From positions 1 through 9,916 of the forward strand of contig DAOVRJ010000078.1 of the NCBI GenBank assembly GCA_030628225.1: a stretch of 9,916 nt of DNA, given 5' to 3'. Positions 133 through 9,916 of the stretch are shown in pieces. A model generated the notes under the pieces. That model worked only from the letters and a program-made list of their open reading frames with translations, was not told where the DNA came from and ran no database searches. This DNA comes from Candidatus Zixiibacteriota bacterium (GTDB lineage Bacteria > SM23-81). Made by a program: the position numbers and the translations under genes. How positions within the stretch are numbered: position 1 is the first letter of the stretch; each line of letters opens with the position of its first letter.

Positions 133-166
133 CGAATCTCGAATTTCGAATCTCGAGTCTCGGTCT
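133..166. repeat. 7-bp tandem repeat array (CGAATCT type)
   Basis: The heptamers CGAATCT, CGAATTT, CGAATCT, CGAGTCT run head to tail, followed by a partial CGGTCT. Read on the minus strand the unit is CGAGATT/CGAGACT, the same unit found at 9796-9842 on the plus strand. It begins 44 bases after the glnS stop (minus strand). It resembles the STRR heptanucleotide repeats known from heterocystous cyanobacteria, but the host here looks proteobacterial. Confidence 0.75.
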
Positions 167-209
167 TTCATCCAGCATCGAGCTTCGCAGAAGGCAGCGC
201 CTGCGTCCT

Positions 210-1973
210 CTATTTCTGCATCTTCTGTGCCTTTTCGATTTTGGCCCATGTGTCCCGAAGCGAGACGGTTCGATTGAAAACGAGTTTCTGAGCAGAAGAA
301 TCCGGGTCGACGCAGAAATAGCCTTGCCTGAGGAACTGGTAGCGGTTCCCCGGCTGCGCATCGGCCAGGTTGGATTCCGCCTGGCAACCGCTCAGGATCT
401 CCCGAGAATTCGGGTTCAAGTGGGTCTTGAAGTCCTCTCCCTCGGCGAGATCGAGGGGATTTTCCTTGGAGAAGAGATGGTCGTAGAGGTGCACTTCAAC
501 ATCCAGGGCATGAGCAGCCGAGACCCAGTGCAGCGTTCCCTTGACCCTGCGGCCATCCTGGGTCCAGCCGCCGCGAGATTTGGGATCATAGGTGCAGTGC
601 AGCTCGCTGATCTGACCGGTTTGTTCATCCTTGATCGCTCGCTGACAGGTGATGTAGTAGGCATGCTTCAGGCGCACCTCGCGTCCCGGAGCAAGACGGA
701 AAAACTTTTTTGGAGGATCTTCACGGAAATCCTCCTGCTCGATGTATATTACCCGGGAGAAGGGAACCTTACGAGTTCCCATAGATTCATCCTCGGGATT
801 ATTGCTGGCCTCCAGCTCCTCTTCCTGCCCTTCAGGGTAGTTGTCGATGATAACTTTCAGCGGCCGCAAAACAACCATTGCCCTCGGCGAACGCCTGTTT
901 AAATCTTCGCGAAGACAGTGCTCTAACAGGGCGATGTCCACGATGCTGTCCCGCTTGGCCACGCCGATCCGGTCGCAGAAATTTCGAATGGCCTGGTGCG
1001 TATAACCCCGGCGGCGCAGACCGCTGAGAGTTGGCATCCGGGGATCATCCCATCCGCCGACGTGTCCTTCATCCACCAGCTGGCGGAGTTTTCGTTTGCT
1101 CAGCACCGTGTGGCTGATGTTGAGGCGGGCAAACTCGATCTGCTGCGGATGGTGGATCCCCAGCTGGTCAAGGAACCAGTCGTACAATGGTCGGTGGTTT
1201 TCAAATTCCAGATCACACAGTGAATGCGTGATTCCCTCGATGGAATCCGACTGGCCGTGAGTGAAGTCGTATGTCGGGTAGATGCACCATTTGTCGTCCG
1301 TTCTATAGTGTTTCGCACGCAGAATACGGTACATGACCGGATCGCGCATATTCAGGTTGGCGGAGGCCATGTCGATCTTGGCCCGGAGTACTTTGGCACC
1401 GTCGGGAAACCCCCCGGCCCGCATGCGCTCAAAAAGCTCCAGATTCTCCTCCACCGAGCGATCGTGGTAGGGGCTTTCTCTCCCCGGCTCGGTTAATGTC
1501 CCCCGATATTCGCGAATCTCATCGGCGCTCAGGTCGTCCACATACGCCTTGCCCATCTTGATCAACTGCACGGCATACTCGTAGAGCTGCTCGTAGTAGT
1601 CGGAGGCGAAATAGAGCCGCTCTCCCCAATCGAACCCCAACCAGCGGATGTCCCGCTTGATGGCCTCGACATACTCCATGTTCTCCTTGGCAGGGTTGCT
1701 GTCGTCCATGCGCAGATTGCAGAGCCCGCTATAATCCGCGGCGATGCCGAAATCTATGCTGATGGCTTTGGCGTGGCCGATGTGCAGGTATCCGTTTGGC
1801 TCCGGTGGAAAACGGGTGTGGATGCGCCCCTCGTGTTTGCCGTTCTTTATATCCTCTTCAACGATGGCCCGGATGAAGTCCAGAACAGGTGCGGCATGGC
1901 CAGGGGCGGTTTCTGTGGCGCCCTTCGTTTTCTCGTCCGGATTGTTGCCGGGGTCGGCAAGCGATTTGTGCAT
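210..1973 (-). CDS. glnS: Glutaminyl-tRNA synthetase
   Basis: This cytoplasmic class I aminoacyl-tRNA synthetase attaches glutamine to tRNA-Gln with ATP. At 587 residues it aligns by eye along its whole length with Escherichia coli GlnRS (about 554 residues), with an extra N-terminal extension of roughly 20-25 residues. The HIGH motif is at residues 64-67 ([10 protein letters not shown]) and the KMSKS-equivalent is VLSKRK at 290-295. Family blocks include [45 protein letters not shown] and the C-terminal [13 protein letters not shown]. The C-terminal beta-barrel anticodon-binding region is complete ([17 protein letters not shown]). The ATG is preceded by CGAGG about 10 bases upstream. The gene follows gltX after 66 bases on the same strand, so co-transcription is likely. 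Bacterial GlnRS is usually explained by ancient transfer from eukaryotes; many relatives use GatCAB instead. Confidence 0.98.
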
Positions 1974-2039
1974 CAGAAGTTAACCTCGAATCTAGCTGTC
2001 GATCTCAGGTCTGACGGTAGAAAGCTGACCTTACGGATA

Positions 2040-3530
2040 TTAATCTCGACGTCCGAAGAGGACGCTGTACTCCTTTTCCAGTTTCTTGAGCTTTTTGCCG
2101 GAAACACCGCCTAAGGCCTCTATTGCTCTGCGCAGCCGCATGCGAACCATGTCCGAGCCGAGGATCTCCATGGAATCAAACAGCGGTGTCCACACCCGCC
2201 GGCCGCTCAAGGCCACGAAGAACGGTGCCAGGAGATCGCGTAGCTTCAGCTCGAGCGTCACGGCCATATTGCGGAAAAGAGCATCGAGCGCTTTTGCCGA
2301 AAACCCCCCTTGTTCTTCCAGTCTCCAGACCGAAAACTGCAGGATCTCGGCGACTTCCTGCGGTGCTTTTCCCTTGATCTTGAGCTGCTGAGGATCGAAT
2401 GGCACCTCGTCGGCGAAGAAGGCGGCGGTCAGGTGACCCCAATCGGCCAGCGTCTCCAGACGGGGCTGAACCAGGGGGATGATCCGGCCGATCCTCTCCC
2501 GGTTAAGCGCCCAACTCTCCAGCTTTTCCTGAAGCGCCCGGGGAGAAAAGTCCTCCCGGATATAGCGTCCATTTAGCCAGCGGAGTTTGTCGACGTCAAA
2601 GACCGGACCGCCCAGCGAGATCTTCTCCAGCTGAAGATTGGCCAGCATCTGCTGCAGAGTGAACTTATCCTCGCCGTCCGGCATCGCCCATCCCATAAGG
2701 CCCAGGTAGTTGAGCAACGCCTCTGGCAAAAACCCGGCTCGACGATAATAGTTGATGGAAGTCGGGTTTTTCCGCTTGGAAAGCTTCGATTTATCTTTGT
2801 TTCTGAGAAGGGGCAGATGACAGAAGATGGGCAGATCCCATCCGAAATACTCATAGAGCTTCACGTGCTTGGGAACAGAGTTGATCCACTCCTCGCCCCG
2901 GATCACGTGGGTAATTCCCATCAGGTGGTCATCGACGACAACGGCCAGGTGATATGTGGGAAAGCCGTCGGACTTGATGATGATCTGATCGTCGACCAGC
3001 GCCCAGTCCTTGCGGATCTCCCCGCGCAGGAGATCCTGGAACACACATACTCCTTCACCGGGTATCTTCATCCGGATGACAAACGGCTGGCCGGCGCTGG
3101 CGCGTTTGTCCGACTCCGCCGGCAGAATGTTGCGGCAGTGCCGGTCGTATCCGGTGTCCGGGCCCTGACGGGTGCGCATTTTGTCAAGGCGTTCCCTGGT
3201 ACAGAAGCATCGATACGCGTGGCCTGCCTTCAGAAGGCTCTCCGCATGCTGCCGATAGATCGCCAGTCGCTCGCTCTGGCGATAGGGCCCGTGAGGTCCG
3301 TCGATGTCGGGACCCTCGTCCCACTGCAGGCCGAGCCAGCGGAGCGATTCCAGGATCGCATCCTCGGATTCCTTTGTGGAGCGGGCCTGGTCGGTGTCCT
3401 CAATGCGCAGGATGAACTTACCCCCCCGCCCTTTGGCGAAGGCGTAATTGAAAAGCGCCTGATAGGCGGTTCCCACATGCGGATCCCCGGTGGGCGATGG
3501 CGCGATGCGGACTCGAACCTGTTCCCCCAT
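2040..3530 (-). CDS. gltX: Glutamyl-tRNA synthetase
   Basis: This class I synthetase charges tRNA-Glu with glutamate in the cytoplasm, supplying translation and often tetrapyrrole synthesis. It is 496 residues, slightly longer than the usual 465-490. The start carries the family signature RIAPSPTGDPHVGTA, with HVGT (18-21) as the HIGH motif, followed by FILRIEDTD. The KMSKS-equivalent is KLSKRK at 249-254. A zinc-site pattern is visible: C108, C110, Y128 and C132 (CFC...YDRHC), the arrangement known from E. coli GluRS. The tRNA-binding C-terminal helical domain is present. The ATG lies 7 bases after the stop of the small membrane-protein gene, and its ribosome site CGGAG overlaps the end of that gene, suggesting translational coupling. 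With GlnRS encoded next door, this GluRS is expected to be the discriminating type; that is inference. Confidence 0.98.
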   Translation of the reverse strand: MGEQVRVRIAPSPTGDPHVGTAYQALFNYAFAKGRGGKFILRIEDTDQARSTKESEDAILESLRWLGLQWDEGPDIDGPHGPYRQSERLAIYRQHAESLLKAGHAYRCFCTRERLDKMRTRQGPDTGYDRHCRNILPAESDKRASAGQPFVIRMKIPGEGVCVFQDLLRGEIRKDWALVDDQIIIKSDGFPTYHLAVVVDDHLMGITHVIRGEEWINSVPKHVKLYEYFGWDLPIFCHLPLLRNKDKSKLSKRKNPTSINYYRRAGFLPEALLNYLGLMGWAMPDGEDKFTLQQMLANLQLEKISLGGPVFDVDKLRWLNGRYIREDFSPRALQEKLESWALNRERIGRIIPLVQPRLETLADWGHLTAAFFADEVPFDPQQLKIKGKAPQEVAEILQFSVWRLEEQGGFSAKALDALFRNMAVTLELKLRDLLAPFFVALSGRRVWTPLFDSMEILGSDMVRMRLRRAIEALGGVSGKKLKKLEKEYSVLFGRRD

Positions 3531-3537
3531 ACTGGTA

Positions 3538-3903
3538 TCACTCCGTGCTCAGGGGTGGTGTGGGGGATTGAAAGGGTGGGGATTCCCGGGGTTCCAGTTG
3601 GATCTCTATGCCCCCAAGTCCCCGAGCGAGAAGATTGTAGAGTCCGGCGAAAAGAGCGGTCATCAAAGAGCCAAAAACAGCGTAGAAAATGGCCAGAAAG
3701 ATGGCTACAAAAAAGCCCATAATGCCGCTAAAAAAGCCGCTCATCCTGCCGAATTCACCGGGACCGGCGAAATCCATCATCTGGCCCACAAAGGCAAAGA
3801 AAATGGCGTAGAAGAGTCCGACGATCAAACCGAGGACGGCGAAGATGACGAAGGATATCTTCATCACAGACCAGGCGTTGATTTTCTTTATCTGATAGAT
3901 CAT
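3538..3903 (-). CDS. Small two-span membrane protein (DUF3566-like)
   Basis: This is a 121-residue hydrophobic protein with a short cytoplasmic-looking N-terminus (MIYQIKKINAWSVMKISF) and two predicted membrane segments, at about residues 14-40 and 60-92. The spans are rich in Phe, Ile and Ala and are separated by a Gly/Met-rich loop. A Pro-rich polar tail follows (residues 103-121). The AWSVMKISF motif followed by a hydrophobic span recalls DUF3566-type small membrane proteins, but that link is from memory and tentative; no catalytic residues are seen. The start is well supported: AAGGAG sits 6 bases before the ATG. It is the first gene of the probable gltX-glnS transcription unit. Its function is unknown, and nothing in it suggests a role in aminoacylation. 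Confidence 0.78.
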   Translation of the reverse strand: MIYQIKKINAWSVMKISFVIFAVLGLIVGLFYAIFFAFVGQMMDFAGPGEFGRMSGFFSGIMGFFVAIFLAIFYAVFGSLMTALFAGLYNLLARGLGGIEIQLEPRESPPFQSPTPPLSTE

Positions 3904-3933
3904 CGTCGGCTCCTTGAGCCTGTAGGGAGAAAG

Positions 3934-3969
3934 GGGATTAGGGATTAGGATTTAGGGGGCAGGGACTTA
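3934..3969. repeat. 7-bp tandem repeat array (GGGATTA type)
   Basis: The units are GGGATTA, GGGATTA, GGATTTA, GGGGGCA and GGGACTTA: an exact 7-base period for four units and then an 8-base unit. The array lies in the leader of the small membrane-protein gene, about 30 bases upstream of its ATG. GGGATTAGGG (3934-3943) is perfectly complementary to CCCTAATCCC at 4031-4040 and again at 4065-4074. Confidence 0.75.
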
Positions 3970-3988
3970 GTAATTCCTACCTATCCGT

Positions 3989-4016
3989 ATAATAAATGCG
4001 CCTGAGTATTATTAAA
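3989..4016 (-). promoter_or_regulatory. Possible sigma-70 promoter for the membrane protein-gltX-glnS cluster
   Basis: On the minus strand, TTTAAT (4016-4011) is followed after 16 bases by TATTAT (3994-3989), a good -10 with a poor -35. The surroundings are AT-rich. Transcription would start near 3983, about 80 bases before the membrane-protein ATG, and would include the GGGATTA repeats in the leader. The match is weak. Confidence 0.3.
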
Positions 4017-4029
4017 GAGCTCTGTTTTT

Positions 4030-4077
4030 CCCCTAATCCCTGGTGGGGCTGGGTGATGCAGGGCCCCTAATCCCTAG
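4030..4077. repeat. Inverted copies of the GGGATTA heptamer
   Basis: CCCCTAATCCCT occurs at 4030-4041 and again at 4064-4075, with copies offset by 34 bases. The reverse complement, AGGGATTAGGGG, is the unit of the array at 3934-3969. The three blocks could form alternative long-range stems (10 perfect base pairs each). No gene lies within. Confidence 0.65.
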
Positions 4078-4135
4078 TGCGGTCGGGATGCCAGGGGCAG
4101 CGCATCGCCTTTCACCAGCATCCGCCTTTTTTAAG

Positions 4136-4224
4136 CGGAGAGGGAGGGATTCGAACCCTCGGTGGGCTTGAGACCCACAACACCTTAGCAGGGTGCCGCC
4201 TTCAGCCAGCTCGGCCACCTCTCC
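4136..4224 (-). tRNA. tRNA-Ser(GCU)
   Basis: This is an 89-base cloverleaf with the long variable arm typical of serine tRNAs. The acceptor stem GGAGAGG pairs with CCTCTCC, with discriminator G at 4136. The anticodon stem GCACC/GGTGT (one G-U pair) carries the loop CTGCTAA, giving anticodon GCU, which reads AGC and AGU. The variable arm is GTGGG/CCCAC and the T-arm is AGGGTTCGAATCCCT. The bases after the discriminator are CTT, so the 3' CCA is not encoded and must be added by tRNA nucleotidyltransferase. No convincing promoter or terminator was found close by. Confidence 0.96.
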
Positions 4225-4320
4225 GAATCCTATTATTTGCTTTGAGTTATTGGTTCTTCAATCTTTTAAGCGAGTGGGTAGGTGACCAGCGCCCGGTTCT
4301 GAGATGCTGAGACAGCGTGA

Positions 4321-4500
4321 TTATTCAGGTTCTTCCGGGAGCAGTGATTCTATCTTAGCCAACAAATCAGGTACGTCCCTTGTGGTGGTTTCCCCGATCT
4401 CATCTGAATCTACAGCGTCATATGCATGAATAAGATGGCCTCATCCCGTCGCATGAATCTCCTCTTGTTCGGAGAAAAGCACTTGAGCGGTCCCCAGTAT
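4321..4500 (-). pseudogene. Decayed HepT-like (DUF86) C-terminal fragment
   Basis: The minus strand between 4437 and 4321 encodes HLIHAYDAVDSDEI, then RDVPDLLAKIESLLPEE, and a TAA stop. This matches by eye the C-terminal signature of HepT-like/DUF86 proteins, the RNase-type toxins or antitoxin partners of MNT nucleotidyltransferases, which read roughly RNxLIHAYxxVDxEIVW...RDLPxLLxxIExLL. The frame is closed by TGA (4443-4441) just upstream. The expected Met-Arg of the catalytic Rx4-6H motif (ATGAGG, 4444-4439) is in another frame, with only one base between it and the His codon; this fits a small deletion. No intact N-terminal half or MNT partner gene is present. The upstream limit given is approximate. 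The identification rests on about 40 residues. Confidence 0.6.
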
Positions 4501-4576
4501 TTCCTTACGACGTGCGCTTGTTCGCTGCTATTTCCCATTTTCCCACAATGAGTAGAGTGACGTCTTTGGAGATATC

Positions 4577-5452
4577 TTATTTCATTGACGCATCCTGAGA
4601 GGTCAGTTTTACTAACTCAACGCGTCGGTTTTTAGCCCGTCCTTCCTCGGTGGTATTGGGCATCACCGGTTTGGATTCCCCAAATCCCTTAGGTGTGAGC
4701 CGGGTGATATCGATTCCAAAAAGCCCAAGATAGGTGACTACGGTTTCGGCCCGGTTCTGCGAGAGTTCCAGATTATGCGTTTCCGAACCCTGGTCGTCGG
4801 TGTGACCCTGGACCTCGAGCTTCAGGTCGGGATTTTCCTTCAGCAAGGTTGCGACGTGTTGAAGCTGCTTAGTGGACTTAGGCTGAAGACTGGCTTTGTC
4901 GAGGTCGAATAGGATATCATGCAACTGGACACGGCCCTCGGCCTCCAGGGCAGCTTTCATCTCGGCCGGACCAAAAGTCAGGCTCTTCTTGAATCCTGCT
5001 TGTTCGATAATGCGCAGGTCTTGCATGGATTGGTTCCAGATGTGGACCTCGCACCAGGTCGTACCACCGTCGTCCCCGGGAAGGGTGAAAGTAAGGTATC
5101 CCTGATTCTCGTACAGAATCGTGCCACCGTTTTCCAGTGCAGCCTGTTTGTAGTTTTCCCGGTACTCCAGAATTGAATGGCTGGCGTCCCATTTCCCTTT
5201 GGAGTCCAGGAGGATATATCTGAGCTTCCAGAACTTACCTTTGACCGGCTTCTTAACCCTCTTTCCGGTCTGGGGATCGGTGGTCCAGAAGCTGTATTCC
5301 GCGAAATTCTGGTAGAGGTGCTGAACATTATGGATAAGAACAGATCCGGGAAACGGCCGGATCAGAGGGTGCTCTTTTACATCTTGAGCATGGACTGGAA
5401 CAGTAAGAATGAAGAAGAGAACAAATAAGTAAAAAAACTTAAAACGATTCAT
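4577..5452 (-). CDS. OmpA-family peptidoglycan-associated protein
   Basis: This is a 291-residue exported protein. The N-terminus MNRFKFF plus a hydrophobic core ending in VHA-Q is a Sec signal peptide cleaved near residue 22. No lipobox Cys is seen. Residues 24-170 form an uncharacterised periplasmic region (PLIRPFPGSVLI..., with FWKLRYILLDSKGKWDASHS). Residues 177-283 are an OmpA C-terminal domain. It contains LHDILFDLDKASLQP, VQGHTDDQGSE, LSQNRAETV and KNRRVEL; Asp219 and Arg234 correspond to the diaminopimelate-contacting pair of the family. It probably tethers the envelope to peptidoglycan. The start is supported by a near-perfect AGGAGG 7 bases upstream of the ATG. The gene stands alone between two serine tRNA genes on the same strand. 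There is no N-terminal beta-barrel, so it is not a classical OmpA porin. Confidence 0.93.
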   Translation of the reverse strand: MNRFKFFYLFVLFFILTVPVHAQDVKEHPLIRPFPGSVLIHNVQHLYQNFAEYSFWTTDPQTGKRVKKPVKGKFWKLRYILLDSKGKWDASHSILEYRENYKQAALENGGTILYENQGYLTFTLPGDDGGTTWCEVHIWNQSMQDLRIIEQAGFKKSLTFGPAEMKAALEAEGRVQLHDILFDLDKASLQPKSTKQLQHVATLLKENPDLKLEVQGHTDDQGSETHNLELSQNRAETVVTYLGLFGIDITRLTPKGFGESKPVMPNTTEEGRAKNRRVELVKLTSQDASMK

Positions 5453-5522
5453 CGGTCTTCCTCCTGGTTTTGGGATCCAATAACTTGGAACTTCATATTC
5501 CTAGCAGTATTTTTCACAATGT

Positions 5523-5546
5523 GGAATATGCAAATGCTAATATTCC
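5523..5546. promoter_or_regulatory. Palindrome upstream of the OmpA-family gene (candidate operator)
   Basis: GGAATAT (5523-5529) and ATATTCC (5540-5546) form a perfect 7-bp inverted repeat separated by 10 bases, about 70 bases upstream of the OmpA-family ATG. A related GGAA...TTCC half-palindrome follows at about 5487-5501. On the minus strand, TTGTGA-16-TATGAA between them could act as a weak promoter. The dyad is compatible with a dimeric regulator site, but no family can be named. Confidence 0.35.
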
Positions 5547-5595
5547 CAAAGTTAAGCCATATAACTACAATATAGACTGCCGAATGAAAATTCCA

Positions 5596-5627
5596 AACAT
5601 TGCCTGGATAGCAAACCGCTCAATGTT
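5596..5627. repeat. 7-bp inverted repeat between tRNA-Ser(UGA) and the OmpA-family gene
   Basis: AACATTG (5596-5602) and CAATGTT (5621-5627) are perfectly complementary with an 18-base spacer. The element lies downstream of tRNA-Ser(UGA) on the minus strand. A T5 run (5646-5650 on the complement) immediately follows the tRNA CCA end, before this dyad, so the order is wrong for an intrinsic terminator. Its role is unknown. Confidence 0.3.
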
Positions 5628-5652
5628 AAGCCGCCATCAAACCTTAAAAACT

Positions 5653-5739
5653 TGGCGGAGGGTGAGGGATTCGAACCCCCATGGGCCGAAGCCCGGCGGA
5701 TTTCAAGTCCGCTGCCTTACCAGTTAGGACTAACCCTCC
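5653..5739 (-). tRNA. tRNA-Ser(UGA)
   Basis: This is an 87-base cloverleaf including an encoded CCA (5655-5653). The acceptor stem GGAGGGT pairs with ACCCTCC, with discriminator G. The anticodon stem GCGGA/TCCGC carries the loop CTTGAAA, so the anticodon is UGA, reading UCA and other UCN codons. The long variable arm has the stem GGGC-TTCG-GCCC, diagnostic of a class II (Ser/Leu/Tyr) tRNA. The T-arm contains GGTTCGAATCC. A selenocysteine tRNA was considered and excluded: the anticodon is TGA rather than TCA, and the acceptor stem is the normal 7 bp. Confidence 0.96.
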
Positions 5740-6226
5740 TGCAGGAAAATTAGTTTTTTACCCTAGCAAATCAATTTAATGTCTTTTACCTCCATTGTCA
5801 AGATATATTCACCATGACCGGCTGGGCAAAGCGACCTGAGCCCTACCTTTGTGAGGAAAATAATGGGTGCTTTTATCCCGGGGAAGGGGGAAGAAGTATG
5901 GGTTGGGAGCCATCAGCCCCTCCTTGGTGGTGAGACGAGCTCAAACACAAGCAGGAGAAGGGTTTTATACCGATCACGGCTCCTTTCAGGAGAAAAGAGC
6001 GCGATTTTCTGATCACGTCTTGGAATTTGCCAGCTTTCTGGCAAATTGCTGAAAACAAATGCTTCTCCCCTGTGCCGCCAGATAACTCTCGGCGGCTCTT
6101 CTTCCCGTTGAATTTCAAAAAGAACCTGTTCTGGCCAGCTATCTCCTTGTTTTGGCATGCAAAGTGCGCGACAAATGGAAAAAACCCACCGTGGCATGGG
6201 TCTACCTTTTTTTCAGGACCGGGAAG
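5740..6226. other. Non-coding stretch with hairpin between tRNA-Ser(UGA) and the HD-GYP gene
   Basis: No convincing gene is seen in these 487 bases; the open frames are short, mutually overlapping and lack ribosome sites or recognisable protein sequence. The left end holds the tRNA-Ser(UGA) promoter. At 6024-6047 AATTTGCCAG and CTGGCAAATT form a perfect 10-bp stem with loop CTTT, without a T-tract on either strand. Weaker structures include CTCCT/AGGAG (5981-5993) and GGAGCC (5906-5911) with GGCTCC (5978-5983); GATCACG is repeated at 5972 and 6011. The region could be a structured 5' leader or small RNA region for the downstream regulator gene, but no known RNA family was recognised. Confidence 0.5.
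5773..5801 (-). promoter_or_regulatory. Sigma-70-type promoter of tRNA-Ser(UGA)
   Basis: On the minus strand, a consensus -35 TTGACA (5801-5796) is followed after exactly 17 bases by TAAATT (5778-5773), a 4/6 match to the -10. The predicted start is near 5766, giving a 5' leader of about 27 bases before the tRNA. The sequence between is AT-rich. This is the best promoter match in the window. Confidence 0.65.
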
Positions 6227-7843
6227 ATGAAAAGAAGAATCCTTGTTGTTGACGACGAGGAGTGCATACGCCGGATAGCCCAGGATTTCCTGGTGAGCGA
6301 GGGCTGGGAAGTTGATGTGGCCGATGATGGCCCACCGGCTCTAAAGCAGATCCAAAAACGTCATTATGATCTGGTTCTCTCCGACATCAAGATGCCCCAG
6401 ATGGACGGGCTGGAGCTCATCCGCCGGGTTCACCAGGTGGATCCCCACCTGATCACCATCATCATGACCGGCTTCGGCAGCATGGAAACGGTCCAGGTGG
6501 CGCTAAAAGAGGGCGCTTATGACTATATTCTGAAGCCGTTTCAGCTTGCAGAGCTCCGGCAGGCGGTGGAAAGGGCTTTTGAGCGCCAACAGCTTATGGA
6601 GGAGAACATCCGCCTGAAGGAACTTGCCGGGCTGATCGAGGTCAGCGAGACCATCAACACCACCTTGAGGAAACGAGATCTATACAAGTTGCTCCTGAAG
6701 ACGGCCCTTTCCCGGACAGATGCCACCCGGGGATCGATAATGATCTATAATGAGCAAAGAAAAGGTCTGGAGATCGTGGCCGCCGAGGGGCTGGAAGAGG
6801 GAATCGTGCAAACCACTCTGGTGAAACCCGGCCAGGGCATCGCCGGAGTGGTTTTTCAAAAAGGAAAGCCGGTGGTTGTTAGCGACATCACCAAGGACCC
6901 CAAATTTGGTCCTCTGCGACGGGGATATCAGGACAAAGCCTTTATCAGCATGCCCCTGGAAAGGGATGAAGAGCTGATATCTCTGCCCCTGAATGCCTCG
7001 CGGAGAGTTATAGGGGTGCTCAATTTGAGCCATAGAACCACGGGGAAGAAATTTACCCTATCCGAGCTGGAGGAACTCCGTGTTCTGGCATGTCAAGCCG
7101 CCGTTTCCATAGATAACATGTTTTTGTTCTACGATTTAGAAGAAGCCTATTTGAGTGCGATTCAATCACTGGCCCTTATGCAGGAAGCCCGGGATTCTTA
7201 TACCAGCGGACATTCGCAAAGGGTCACTCAGATCTCGGTTGTTATCGCCAAGACCTTGGACCTCTCCCAGAAGGAAATAGAGCTTTTGCAGCATGCCGGC
7301 ATGTTGCACGATATAGGGAAGATAGGTATTCCCGAGGGCATCCTGAACAAACCTGGAAAATTGACCTCGGCGGAGCGCAAGATCATACAACAGCATCCCG
7401 TCATCGGTGAGAAAGTCTTGAAACCGGTGAAGTTTTTAGCGGAAGTCCGGCTAATTGTCCGGCATCATCATGAACGAGAAAACGGAACCGGATATCCAGA
7501 TGGCTTGAACGGGAAAGAACTTTCTCCCCTGATCAAGATCATCAGCGTCGCCGACGCATTTGACGCCATGGACTCTAACAGACCACACCGCCGTGCTTTG
7601 TCGCGAAGCCAGATCAAACAGGAGCTCCGCCAAAACAGCGGAAGGCAGTTCGATGCCCAGGTGGTGGACGTCTTTCTGAAGATCTTGAAGAGTAGACCGG
7701 AGAAACTGCTGAAGAAACAAACAGGTCAGGGTCTGCCCGACCTGGGGGAGGAAATGCTCCAGACAGGAAGCCGGCCAGGACCCAGGGTACGGCAAAGTCC
7801 CGCTGGCGGGAAAAAAAAGGTTAAAATTGCAGTAAAAGCATAA
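6227..7843 (+). CDS. REC-GAF-HD-GYP response regulator (predicted c-di-GMP phosphodiesterase)
   Basis: This is a 538-residue cytoplasmic signalling protein. Residues 1-120 form a receiver domain with the acidic pair D9/D10, phospho-acceptor D53 (LVLSDIKMP), T81 and K103 (ILKPF), all intact. Residues about 135-300 are a GAF domain (GIAGVVFQKGKPVVVSDI, RVIGVLNL), likely binding a small ligand. Residues about 305-490 are an HD-GYP domain: H329, H361-D362 (HDIGKIGIP), H390, H414-H415 in HHERENGTGYP and D443. The metal-binding and GYP residues needed to hydrolyse c-di-GMP are present. A basic tail follows (about 495-538). I chose the ATG at 6227 over an upstream TTG at 6152: AGGA lies 8 bases before it, and the receiver fold starts at once (MKRRILVVDD). 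A stand-alone receiver gene follows; no sensor kinase is visible. Confidence 0.95.
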   Translation: MKRRILVVDDEECIRRIAQDFLVSEGWEVDVADDGPPALKQIQKRHYDLVLSDIKMPQMDGLELIRRVHQVDPHLITIIMTGFGSMETVQVALKEGAYDYILKPFQLAELRQAVERAFERQQLMEENIRLKELAGLIEVSETINTTLRKRDLYKLLLKTALSRTDATRGSIMIYNEQRKGLEIVAAEGLEEGIVQTTLVKPGQGIAGVVFQKGKPVVVSDITKDPKFGPLRRGYQDKAFISMPLERDEELISLPLNASRRVIGVLNLSHRTTGKKFTLSELEELRVLACQAAVSIDNMFLFYDLEEAYLSAIQSLALMQEARDSYTSGHSQRVTQISVVIAKTLDLSQKEIELLQHAGMLHDIGKIGIPEGILNKPGKLTSAERKIIQQHPVIGEKVLKPVKFLAEVRLIVRHHHERENGTGYPDGLNGKELSPLIKIISVADAFDAMDSNRPHRRALSRSQIKQELRQNSGRQFDAQVVDVFLKILKSRPEKLLKKQTGQGLPDLGEEMLQTGSRPGPRVRQSPAGGKKKVKIAVKA

Positions 7844-8001
7844 GAACTTCAACGCAAGCGGACCTTACCCGGTGCTTCTTTCACGCCATAAAGAACGAAA
7901 ATGGAAACTTCATGGTGTGGCTCTCTAGCCACATCTACAGATTGGTCAGCCTGTTACGCGCTCCACGGCTTATCTCGAGGGCTCCCAAGAGAAACGATCT
8001 C

Positions 8002-8442
8002 ATGAACCAGCAATCCCTGAAGATTCTCCTGGTTGAGGATGATCCTGAGGTTGGACTCATCACCCAGATGGTTTTAAAAAAAACGAAGGTGCCCAACGAG
8101 CTTTTTGTAGTTGGAGATGGACAAAAAGCCCTGGATTTTCTCTATCATAGGGGGAAATATTCCAACGGCAGAAAAGCTCCCCAGCCCGATTTGATTCTTA
8201 TGGAGATCGATCTGCCCAGGATCAGCGGCCTTGAGGTGCTCAGGAAGCTGAAGGTAGACAAGGAGCTTAGAAGAATTCCTGTCACTATCATAGCTCGCTC
8301 AGGATGCGATGCGGACATAGCCGAAAGCTATGCTCTGGGAGCGAACACCTACATCCAAAAACCGATGGGGTTTGACAGGTTCGTCAGGACAATCCGGTCC
8401 TTCTACCGGTACTGGACGGTTCTGGCCAAATTGCCATCTTGA
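8002..8442 (+). CDS. Stand-alone receiver (Rcp1-like) lacking the phospho-acceptor Asp
   Basis: This 146-residue single-domain protein has the CheY fold of the Rcp1-type group: KILLVEDDPEVGLI at the start, the LDFLYHRGKYS insertion, LEVLRKLK, and a C-terminal FYRYW helix. The acidic residues E12-D13-D14 and K120 (YIQKPM) are kept. The position normally occupied by the phosphorylated Asp is Glu68 (LILMEIDLP instead of LLLDLNLP), and the switch Thr is Ala98 (IIARS). It is therefore probably a pseudo-receiver locked in one state or regulated by binding alone. The ATG at 8002 directly precedes the fold; its ribosome site (AAGAGA) is weak. An upstream ATG at 7912 would add 30 basic, non-conserved residues and seems unlikely. 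It lies 158 bases after the HD-GYP gene and may share its transcript. Confidence 0.92.
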   Translation: MNQQSLKILLVEDDPEVGLITQMVLKKTKVPNELFVVGDGQKALDFLYHRGKYSNGRKAPQPDLILMEIDLPRISGLEVLRKLKVDKELRRIPVTIIARSGCDADIAESYALGANTYIQKPMGFDRFVRTIRSFYRYWTVLAKLPS

Positions 8443-8474
8443 CCAACGAGCAGACTTGGGCATAGCCGTTCTAT

Positions 8475-8508
8475 CCGGTGGTTCCTGCAGCATCAGGGGA
8501 TTAACCGG
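8475..8508. terminator. Possible hairpin between convergent genes
   Basis: CCGGT (8475-8479) pairs with ACCGG (8504-8508), and nested CCTG (8484-8487) pairs with CAGG (8494-8497). The structure lies where the receiver gene and the DUF362 gene converge and overlaps the last codons of the latter. There is no T-tract on either strand, so if it terminates transcription it is not a standard intrinsic terminator. Confidence 0.22.
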
Positions 8509-9647
8509 GCCAGCAAGCTCCACTTGAGCTCGATGGCTGATTCCGGGCAAAGCTCGTGGCAGCACAGACATGAGATGCATTTTTGTGCCCGGAGCCGCGG
8601 ATGGGGCGAAGCTGCTGTCAGGGCTCCTGTGGGGCAGCTTTTCACGCAGGTGTTGCAGTTGGTGCAAATTTCCGGAATGATCCGCGGGCGTGTGTAGATG
8701 AACCTCCTGACCAGATGGACCAGGGGTGTGGGGATCAGCTTGCTGGGATGGGATTTCGGCCGGACGAACTTCTCGATTCCCAGCTTCTCCGGGTCTTCCC
8801 CCAGCACCTGAATCTCCTCCGGGGAACATACGCCCAGACCTCGCCGGGCGGCCAATTGACATGTGCTGATCTCTCTGGGGGAGATGCCCACAGCCAGCCC
8901 GGCAATTGCATCAACGGCAACAGCATCATTACCCGCCAGCAGCAAGCCCACATCCCGTTTTCTCCCCGCCGACGGACCATTGCCATCCATGCCCTCTACG
9001 GCATCCATGAGTGTCAGTTGCGGGACGATTAAGGAGTATATGTCCACCAGGGCCTCGCTGAAAGGCCCGGGCTTGGGATGGATCAGGTGGGTCTCCCGCT
9101 TGCAAAACCCCGGGATCAAACCATACATGTTCTTCACAGCCCCGGTGAACAGGACCAGACTGTGCGTCTTGAGCTTGGGCAGATTGATGATGATGTCAAC
9201 GTCCATGGCCAATCTGGAGATGTGATAGATCTGGCTACCTCGAGATTTTTTGTAGCAACCGCCGGCCTCGATGTTCACCAGGGGAACCCCGGTTCTCTCG
9301 GATACCTCCTGCATGCCCGTAGCCGCCCACACATCCTTTAAATCCCGGCCTGAGGCCCCGGGGCTGTCCCCGATCATCGGTTTTCCCCCGGCCTTTTTAA
9401 CTTCCTCCGCCACCGCGGCAACCACCTCGGGGTGAGTGGTGATAGCCTGTTCCGGCATCTTGGGAGCCAGGAGATTGGGTTTAATGAGCACCCGGTCCCC
9501 TTTTCTGACCACCGAGCTTAGCCCGCCGATGAGGGCAAAACAGCGCCCAACGGCCTCTGTCACCATCTCACGCTCATATGCCGGACACCGAACCACCGCC
9601 ACTTTACTTTTTACTTTTTCCTCAGCCGCCCGGGAATATCGCAGCAT
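8493..9647 (-). CDS. DUF362 protein with C-terminal 2x[4Fe-4S] ferredoxin domain
   Basis: This 384-residue cytoplasmic iron-sulfur protein of unknown reaction is common in anaerobic bacteria and archaea. Residues about 15-290 are the DUF362 domain (RVLIKPNLL, MIGDSPGA, IINLPKLKTHSL, GAVKNMYGLIPG, LMDAVEGMDGNGP, AVDAIAGLAVG). Residues about 322-375 carry two ferredoxin cysteine sets: C328-C331-C334-C338 (CTNCNTCVKSCP) and C357-C360-C363-C367 (CISCLCCHELCP), which should bind two [4Fe-4S] clusters. It is usually described as an uncharacterised redox protein. I chose the ATG at 9647, preceded by GGAGAG about 7 bases upstream; ATG 9662 and TTG 9692 in the same frame would add 5 or 15 residues but have poorer ribosome sites. 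It is convergent with the receiver gene and stands alone. Confidence 0.93.
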   Translation of the reverse strand: MLRYSRAAEEKVKSKVAVVRCPAYEREMVTEAVGRCFALIGGLSSVVRKGDRVLIKPNLLAPKMPEQAITTHPEVVAAVAEEVKKAGGKPMIGDSPGASGRDLKDVWAATGMQEVSERTGVPLVNIEAGGCYKKSRGSQIYHISRLAMDVDIIINLPKLKTHSLVLFTGAVKNMYGLIPGFCKRETHLIHPKPGPFSEALVDIYSLIVPQLTLMDAVEGMDGNGPSAGRKRDVGLLLAGNDAVAVDAIAGLAVGISPREISTCQLAARRGLGVCSPEEIQVLGEDPEKLGIEKFVRPKSHPSKLIPTPLVHLVRRFIYTRPRIIPEICTNCNTCVKSCPTGALTAASPHPRLRAQKCISCLCCHELCPESAIELKWSLLARLIP

Positions 9648-9725
9648 CAGACATCTCTCCATTTCCTGTCTTTCATGCCGATTGTTGAACAAAGGCCAGC
9701 GAGAAAGTAGTCGCCAGCCTGAGAT

Positions 9726-9754
9726 CTTACAGTAATAAATCCGGCTGATCGCAA
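9726..9754 (-). promoter_or_regulatory. Possible promoter of the DUF362 gene
   Basis: On the minus strand, TTGCGA (9754-9749) is followed after 17 bases by TGTAAG (9731-9726), each matching the sigma-70 hexamers at four positions. The transcript would start near 9719, about 70 bases before the chosen ATG. The match is modest and unsupported by other signals. Confidence 0.3.
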
Positions 9755-9795
9755 GAGTTTGTGGGCGCTGTGAGTGAAGGATGCTGGTGAAAGGC

Positions 9796-9842
9796 CGAGA
9801 TTCGAGACTTGAGACTCGTTGAACCCCGAGACTAGAGACTCG
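9796..9842. repeat. 7-bp tandem repeat array (CGAGACT type)
   Basis: The heptamers CGAGATT, CGAGACT, TGAGACT and CG are followed by an 8-base interruption, then CGAGACT, AGAGACT and CG. The unit is the reverse complement of the left-edge array at 133-166, so the two arrays carry the same family in opposite orientation. The array lies upstream of the DUF362 gene in DNA with no other gene. Confidence 0.75.
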
Positions 9843-9875
9843 TAAAGGCTGAAGTCAAAATATTTTCCCATTTTG

Positions 9876-9916
9876 CATTTTTCACTTTTCATTTTTCACT
9901 TTGCATTTCTTTTACC
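9876..9916. repeat. 14-bp tandem repeat, about 2.7 units, running off the window
   Basis: CATTTTTCACTTTT (9876-9889) and CATTTTTCACTTTG (9890-9903) are followed by a diverged third unit beginning CATTTCTTTT. The two full units differ at one base. The array is T-rich on the plus strand and continues to the window edge, so its true length is unknown. Open frames crossing it are products of the repeat, not genes. Confidence 0.7.

Follow-up and report, generated by a model that had tools for sequence, protein, structure and literature searches.

The window, a stretch of 9,916 nucleotides, is the whole of one contig (C42) of the draft genome G000, which comprises 2.34 Mb in 306 contigs. On its minus strand glnS and gltX lie side by side (210-1973 and 2040-3530), an adjacency that is also found in G001, a genome of the sister genus (C37:22550-24223 and 25022-25774), where the spacer past glnS holds repeat words that differ from those of the window. 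Two tRNA-Ser genes, with anticodons GCT and TGA (4135-4224 and 5653-5739, about 1.4 kb apart), are the only matches of an Rfam scan of the window. Genes were called by a simple codon-usage script and not by a standard gene finder, and the distances given below, as well as a few assignments of arrays to reading frames, are approximate.

The two ends of the window carry short arrays of one heptamer family, CGAGAYT, in opposite orientation, which had been described in an earlier note on this DNA and is confirmed by the sequence. The left array (minus strand) has four units, CGAGACT CGAGATT CGAAATT CGAGATT (162-135), and a partial CG (134-133), so that the span of 133-166 first given for it holds for 133-162 and positions 163-166 belong to a linker. 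This linker, GAAAGAC, and a GATGCTGGAT module occupy positions 163-182 of the same strand directly 5' of the array, an order that recurs at many other loci. Beyond the array, still on the minus strand, come an A-rich linker, TTAAAAGAATAAAC, and a GATCCTTGATCCTGGAT module (101-132), then an array of the nonamer GAGAGTTnn detected by TRF (52-97), and finally, at the contig end, the palindrome TGTCATGCCTGTATTCGCAGGAATGACA (14-41, without strand), which is dispersed elsewhere too and matches elements at four other loci (L034, L036, L039 and L045).

The right array lies on the plus strand, as do its neighbours: a GGATGCTGG module and a TGAAAGGC linker (9779-9795) precede three units, CGAGATT CGAGACT TGAGACT (9796-9816), and a CG (9817-9818). 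After an 8-base gap (9819-9826) there is a second run, CGAGACT AGAGACT CG (9827-9842), which begins 31 bases after the start of the first and is out of phase with it by 3. The arrays had been called phase-perfect, a description that fits the left array and both sub-arrays on the right but not 9796-9842 overall, given the out-of-phase second run and its AGAGACT unit. An array of CATTTTT/CACTTTT heptamers follows (9869-9908, plus). Neither CGAGAYT array falls in a gene; the left one lies 47 bp past the stop of glnS and the right one 103 bp ahead of the start of a DUF362-like gene. A separate family, GGGATTA, forms an array at 3934-3960 (plus), and it is opposed by inverted CCCTAAT copies, CCCTAATCCC, at 4030-4041 and 4064-4076, with about 70 bp between them.

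The host had been taken for a probable member of the Desulfobacterota, to which no link was found: G001, which belongs to the same family, is 'candidate division Zixibacteria bacterium SM23_81' (contigs LJUY01000066 and LJUY01000060, with identical array sequences). Two more genomes of the same phylum, G002 and G003, were also compared. The part of G000 that was read amounts to about 0.62 Mb, roughly a quarter of this genome, and takes in all contigs with a three-unit array; a similar share of G001 was covered.

In the 2.34 Mb of G000 the pattern (YGARAYT)x3 has 71 exact matches (31 forward and 40 reverse) that make up 51 arrays, while the reversed pattern and 3.09 Mb of first-order Markov sequence give none and the analytic expectation is 0.0003. 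The proposal of a family dispersed over the genome is thereby borne out, and counts at the level of shuffled sequence, or a lack of arrays beyond these two, are excluded. The arrays are also enriched outside genes, as had been supposed, since 46 of the 51 with at least three units are intergenic (p 8e-31). Contiguous units number two in 22 arrays, three in 31 and four in 20, and never more than four. CGAGAYT arrays are absent from G002 and G003, and G003 has many heptamers of other sequence.

Arrays accumulate where contigs stop: 19 of the 51 are found no more than 300 bp from a contig end, where 8% would be expected (p 4e-9), which suggests that the assembly breaks at these repeats and so places arrays at both ends of the window. 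Because the window is an entire contig that ends in repeats, the opposite orientation of its two arrays is an assembly effect with no added meaning.

CGAGAYT is, moreover, not the lone family that was first supposed, but one module of a mosaic that includes at least five further families of heptamers as well as a nonamer. A systematic sample of contigs, 295 kb in all, contains 36 arrays of period 7, whereas shuffled sequence contains none; periods 14 and 21 echo this peak, and other periods have far lower numbers. Period 7 (also 14 and 21) stands far above the rest in each of G000, G001 and G003, and loci of unrelated phyla show the same enrichment. Its density reaches about 90-130 arrays per Mb in two genera, and the SM23_81-family lineage is unusually rich in 7-base arrays. 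The families of G000 comprise CGAGAYT, GGATNCT/GATCCTG, CATTTTT/CACTTTT/CATTTTG, GGGATTA, CGGGRNY and CGGARYT, together with the nonamer GAGAGTTnn.

These modules follow a preferred order. GGATNCT stands just upstream of the CGAGAYT array, followed by a GAAAGRC-like linker, the array itself, a partial CG and an A-rich linker, and downstream there is GATCCTG at +17 to +20 (about 15 loci have a GATCCTTGATCCTGGAT module at this distance), with CATTTTT at +28/29 or +53 and CGGG at +1 to +18 as alternatives. At one locus of SM23_81 (L096) the modules have the same order, including ATTATAGTT and GAGAGTT. The number of units differs among CGAGAYT copies whose flanks are alike. Two simpler rules were considered and dropped: a strict alternation of CGAGATT and CGAGACT is weak (47 changes and 33 non-changes, with about 39 expected), and a universal YG-based heptamer grammar across phyla is contradicted by several families without YG. 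Another dispersed sequence, TCCGCTACCCCCTCT, often lies directly ahead of CGAGAYT arrays (L040, L044, L066, L258 and others), and one that resembles it occupies the equivalent slot in G001.

Composites in unrelated spacers of G000 are mostly 80-95% identical across 150-430 bp. The right end of the window (9796-9916) matches a copy on another contig (L047:6119, contig C165) at all of its 121 bp and is 88-96% identical to copies on C158 and C137. Identical unit order occurs in 27 pairs, against a shuffle mean of 7.3, although the shuffle maximum of 29 means that this figure is not extreme. Genome-wide dispersal, common flanks and order at non-orthologous sites and near-identical composites on different contigs are thus observed directly, and there is good support for composites being copied.

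The comparison with the sister genus points in the same direction. Among 53 syntenic gene pairs of G000 and G001, three spacers have arrays in G000 and none was scored in G001, and the remaining 50 are without arrays in both; arrays present in one genus are therefore missing from the other at orthologous spacers. At the orthologous spacer C269/L289, a terminator-like hairpin is common to both genomes, and the spacer measures 218 bp with a composite in G000 and 92 bp without one in G001, a difference that insertion and deletion would produce alike. What G000 has in addition is a GGATCCT-CGAGAYT-CATTTTT unit that starts with GGATCCTGGATAAAAG, ends with CTTTTACCAGGATCCAGGATCC and is closed by inverted GGATCC repeats. 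In another spacer (L258 in G000, L220 in G001) the same slot in G001 is filled, as judged by eye, by degenerate heptamers of a different motif. These differences imply that the arrays turn over from one genus to the other, and a composite seems to come or go as a whole; gain in G000 and loss in G001 are both compatible with the data.

Taken together, these observations are best accounted for, with a probability of roughly 0.6, if CGAGAYT arrays are one module of a mosaic repeat, non-coding and dispersed between genes, that spreads by the copying of composites between spacers. Short arrays of two to four units, drawn from several heptamer families and the nonamer, would be joined in a preferred order by A/G-rich linkers, and we infer that such composites, rather than single heptamers, are what is copied. 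Two routes may be envisaged: units of MITE type, bracketed by inverted GGATNCT ends, could be moved in trans, or recombination and template switching could take place among spacers that already share heptamers; in either case local slippage would then adjust the number of units. No gene-specific function would be needed, and the repeat is best regarded as spacer DNA of a neutral or selfish kind. Copying does not explain period 7 as such, which is also found in unrelated phyla with other motifs, and we agree with the earlier note that the propagation and the function of the family are unexplained.

A stricter form of the copied-composite reading, which we regard as possible though doubtful, is a true MITE or REP-type element moved by an encoded transposase, for example a RAYT (Y1_Tnp). 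MITE, REP and BOX repeats are non-coding, dispersed and modular, with partly inverted ends and empty orthologous sites. The composites of G000 share their dispersed, modular and non-coding nature and, in some copies, the inverted ends, and differ from them in having heptamer arrays as modules and ends that are not uniform. The inverted GGATCC ends and the array-free orthologous spacer at C269 are what such an element would leave, and the palindromic repeat at 14-41 of the window belongs to a longer composite. However, terminal inverted GGATNCT is clear at C269, near-complete at C165 and absent from others, and some composites end in different heptamers such as TGCTTAC; no target-site duplication can be defined at C269, the single clean site, and the analysis found no mobilising enzyme. 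All four genomes of the phylum that were compared (G000-G003) have Y1_Tnp genes, yet no CGAGAYT or GGATNCT arrays surround those at L224 and L228, the two inspected among the four Y1_Tnp loci of G000, and these two loci give a link to RAYT no support; the L224 locus has one TGAAAAA-type array. Spread by phages was considered and discarded, with an array in only two stretches among 2.9 million viral contigs.

Independent local expansion, in which polymerase slippage favours 7-base steps in place and similar motifs converge, is unlikely as a full account. Slippage is the hypothesis that PMC4692102 cites for the excess of heptamers in bacteria, and both the enrichment of period 7 (and 14 and 21) across G000, G001, G003 and unrelated phyla and the variable unit number of copies with similar flanks agree with it. 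It does not predict that non-orthologous spacers share flanks, identical linkers and module order, nor that contiguous units stay at four or fewer in G000 when the same unit reaches up to 32 in Vibrio. All that is left for local expansion is to have given rise to period 7 and to changes in unit number.

It is less probable still that the arrays are cis-regulatory or RNA-level elements, for example sites for RNA- or DNA-binding proteins as proposed for TAACTGA in Beggiatoaceae. Almost all arrays are intergenic, and many CGAGAYT arrays lie within 15-50 bp of a gene end, as such elements might. In tandem spacers of G000, however, CGAGAYT arrays are sense in 11 cases and antisense in 11, which speaks against a transcribed cis-element, and the motif is kept in none of the three orthologous spacers of the sister genus. 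Arrays are closer to the gene on their 5' side, whatever its direction, in 21 of 27 cases (21 and 6, p 0.006). Of three composites tested for folding, two fold no better than shuffles and the third (z -3.1) does so through its inverted ends; strong folding (z -7.6) is seen in one pair of inverted arrays. An RNA hairpin with compensating changes was considered for the inverted pair at L066 and rejected: by eye, its variable C/T positions give C-A mismatches, and so there is no sign of selection for pairing. A regulatory role for CGAGAYT arrays is not supported. The nonamer GAGAGTTnn, with 25 arrays in the G000 contigs read, lies closer to a gene on its 5' side in 14 of 14 cases and in sense orientation downstream of genes in 12 of 14, and is a better candidate than CGAGAYT for a role at the transcript level.

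A more speculative view, to which we give a very low probability, holds that the heptamers are footprints of an unrecognised process that adds 7-base repeats to outward-running 3' ends of broken spacers, with template switching afterwards; telomere-like addition is the analogue invoked for such healing of bacterial ends. If true, it would explain why different motifs and phyla share period 7, why there are inverted pairs and why there is an inward polarity of purine-rich strands, which point inward from the flanking genes in 63 cases against 30 in G000 and 26 against 8 in G001. Elements with inverted ends would give such a pattern as well, and a crude test on loci from unrelated phyla did not reproduce the polarity (33 against 25). 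A general purine gradient over spacers proved weak or absent, except in convergent spacers. Lastly, an artefact of assembly or binning has a negligible probability: the genome is a 306-contig draft with arrays concentrated at contig ends, but the majority of arrays are contig-internal, between genes, and the independently assembled SM23_81 has the same module order at L096.

The STRR of heterocystous cyanobacteria are degenerate intergenic heptamer arrays, with several motifs per genome. The repeats of G000 share these properties and differ in motifs, phylum and composite order; to our knowledge, no composite order with A-rich linkers is on record for STRR, of which a Calothrix example is among those cited in PMC4692102. 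An excess of heptamers in bacteria, documented and unexplained according to that paper and the works cited there, extends to GGGNATC / GGGGA(C/T)T repeats of Xanthomonas and Nostoc, which are intergenic and genome-wide, have few units, form inverted pairs, lie closer to the gene 5' of them irrespective of its direction and have no known function (PMC4692102). The G000 arrays resemble them in the heptamer unit, the intergenic site, the few units, the inverted pairs and the proximity to the 5' gene, whereas CGAGAYT has no G-tracts of three or more and cannot form the quadruplex proposed for GGGNATC. Furthermore, the G000 arrays are embedded in composites of several families, and while 83% of heptamer positions are conserved between two Xanthomonas species (PMC4692102), all three comparable spacers differ between the genera of G000 and G001.

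Arrays of TAACTGA are patchy over phyla (Beggiatoaceae, cyanobacteria, Bacteroidetes), with no known vehicle, and in Beggiatoaceae they lie mostly just upstream of starts, in one orientation (PMC4679880). They have in common with G000 intergenic direct repeats of heptamers, a patchy distribution over phyla, mixed heptamers within a spacer and relatives without arrays; unlike the single, sense-oriented motif upstream of starts in Beggiatoaceae, G000 has many motifs and no orientation rule. The earlier note expected a heptamer family to be unusual in a probable Desulfobacterota genome, but such arrays are nothing unusual outside the cyanobacteria: they are known from Xanthomonas (PMC4692102) and from Bacteroidetes as well as Beggiatoaceae (PMC4679880). 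Arrays of CGAGAYT itself were found in more than 100 stretches of DNA that belong to many phyla. This number is a lower bound, and the loci, picked by the CGAGAYT pattern, are not an unbiased sample of bacteria; they also hold 84 arrays of other heptamers. The G000 repeats belong to a known class of bacterial heptamer repeats, and their multi-family modular order is the new feature.

Why bacterial intergenic repeats so often use a 7-base unit has been an open question since it was first noticed, as cited in PMC4692102. The SM23_81-family lineage is a favourable case, in that period 7 is dense in two of its genera, one genome has six or more motif families, the module order is visible and a spacer of the sister genus is free of arrays; it makes the choice between copied composites and local slippage testable. 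Dispersed mosaic repeats also help to account for the hundreds of contigs in the assembly of such a genome.

Some arrays of other bacteria deserve mention. The Beggiatoaceae motif, as TCAGTTA (TAACTGA) heptamers, is not in the window and is present in G003 (L250:5268). In Acidobacteria (L136 and L172), CGAGATT arrays form tight inverted pairs that would make long hairpins. In Vibrio (L125, L117 and L101), arrays of 9 to 32 perfect CGAGATT units, in sense orientation, have a stop codon on one side and a terminator-like hairpin on the other.
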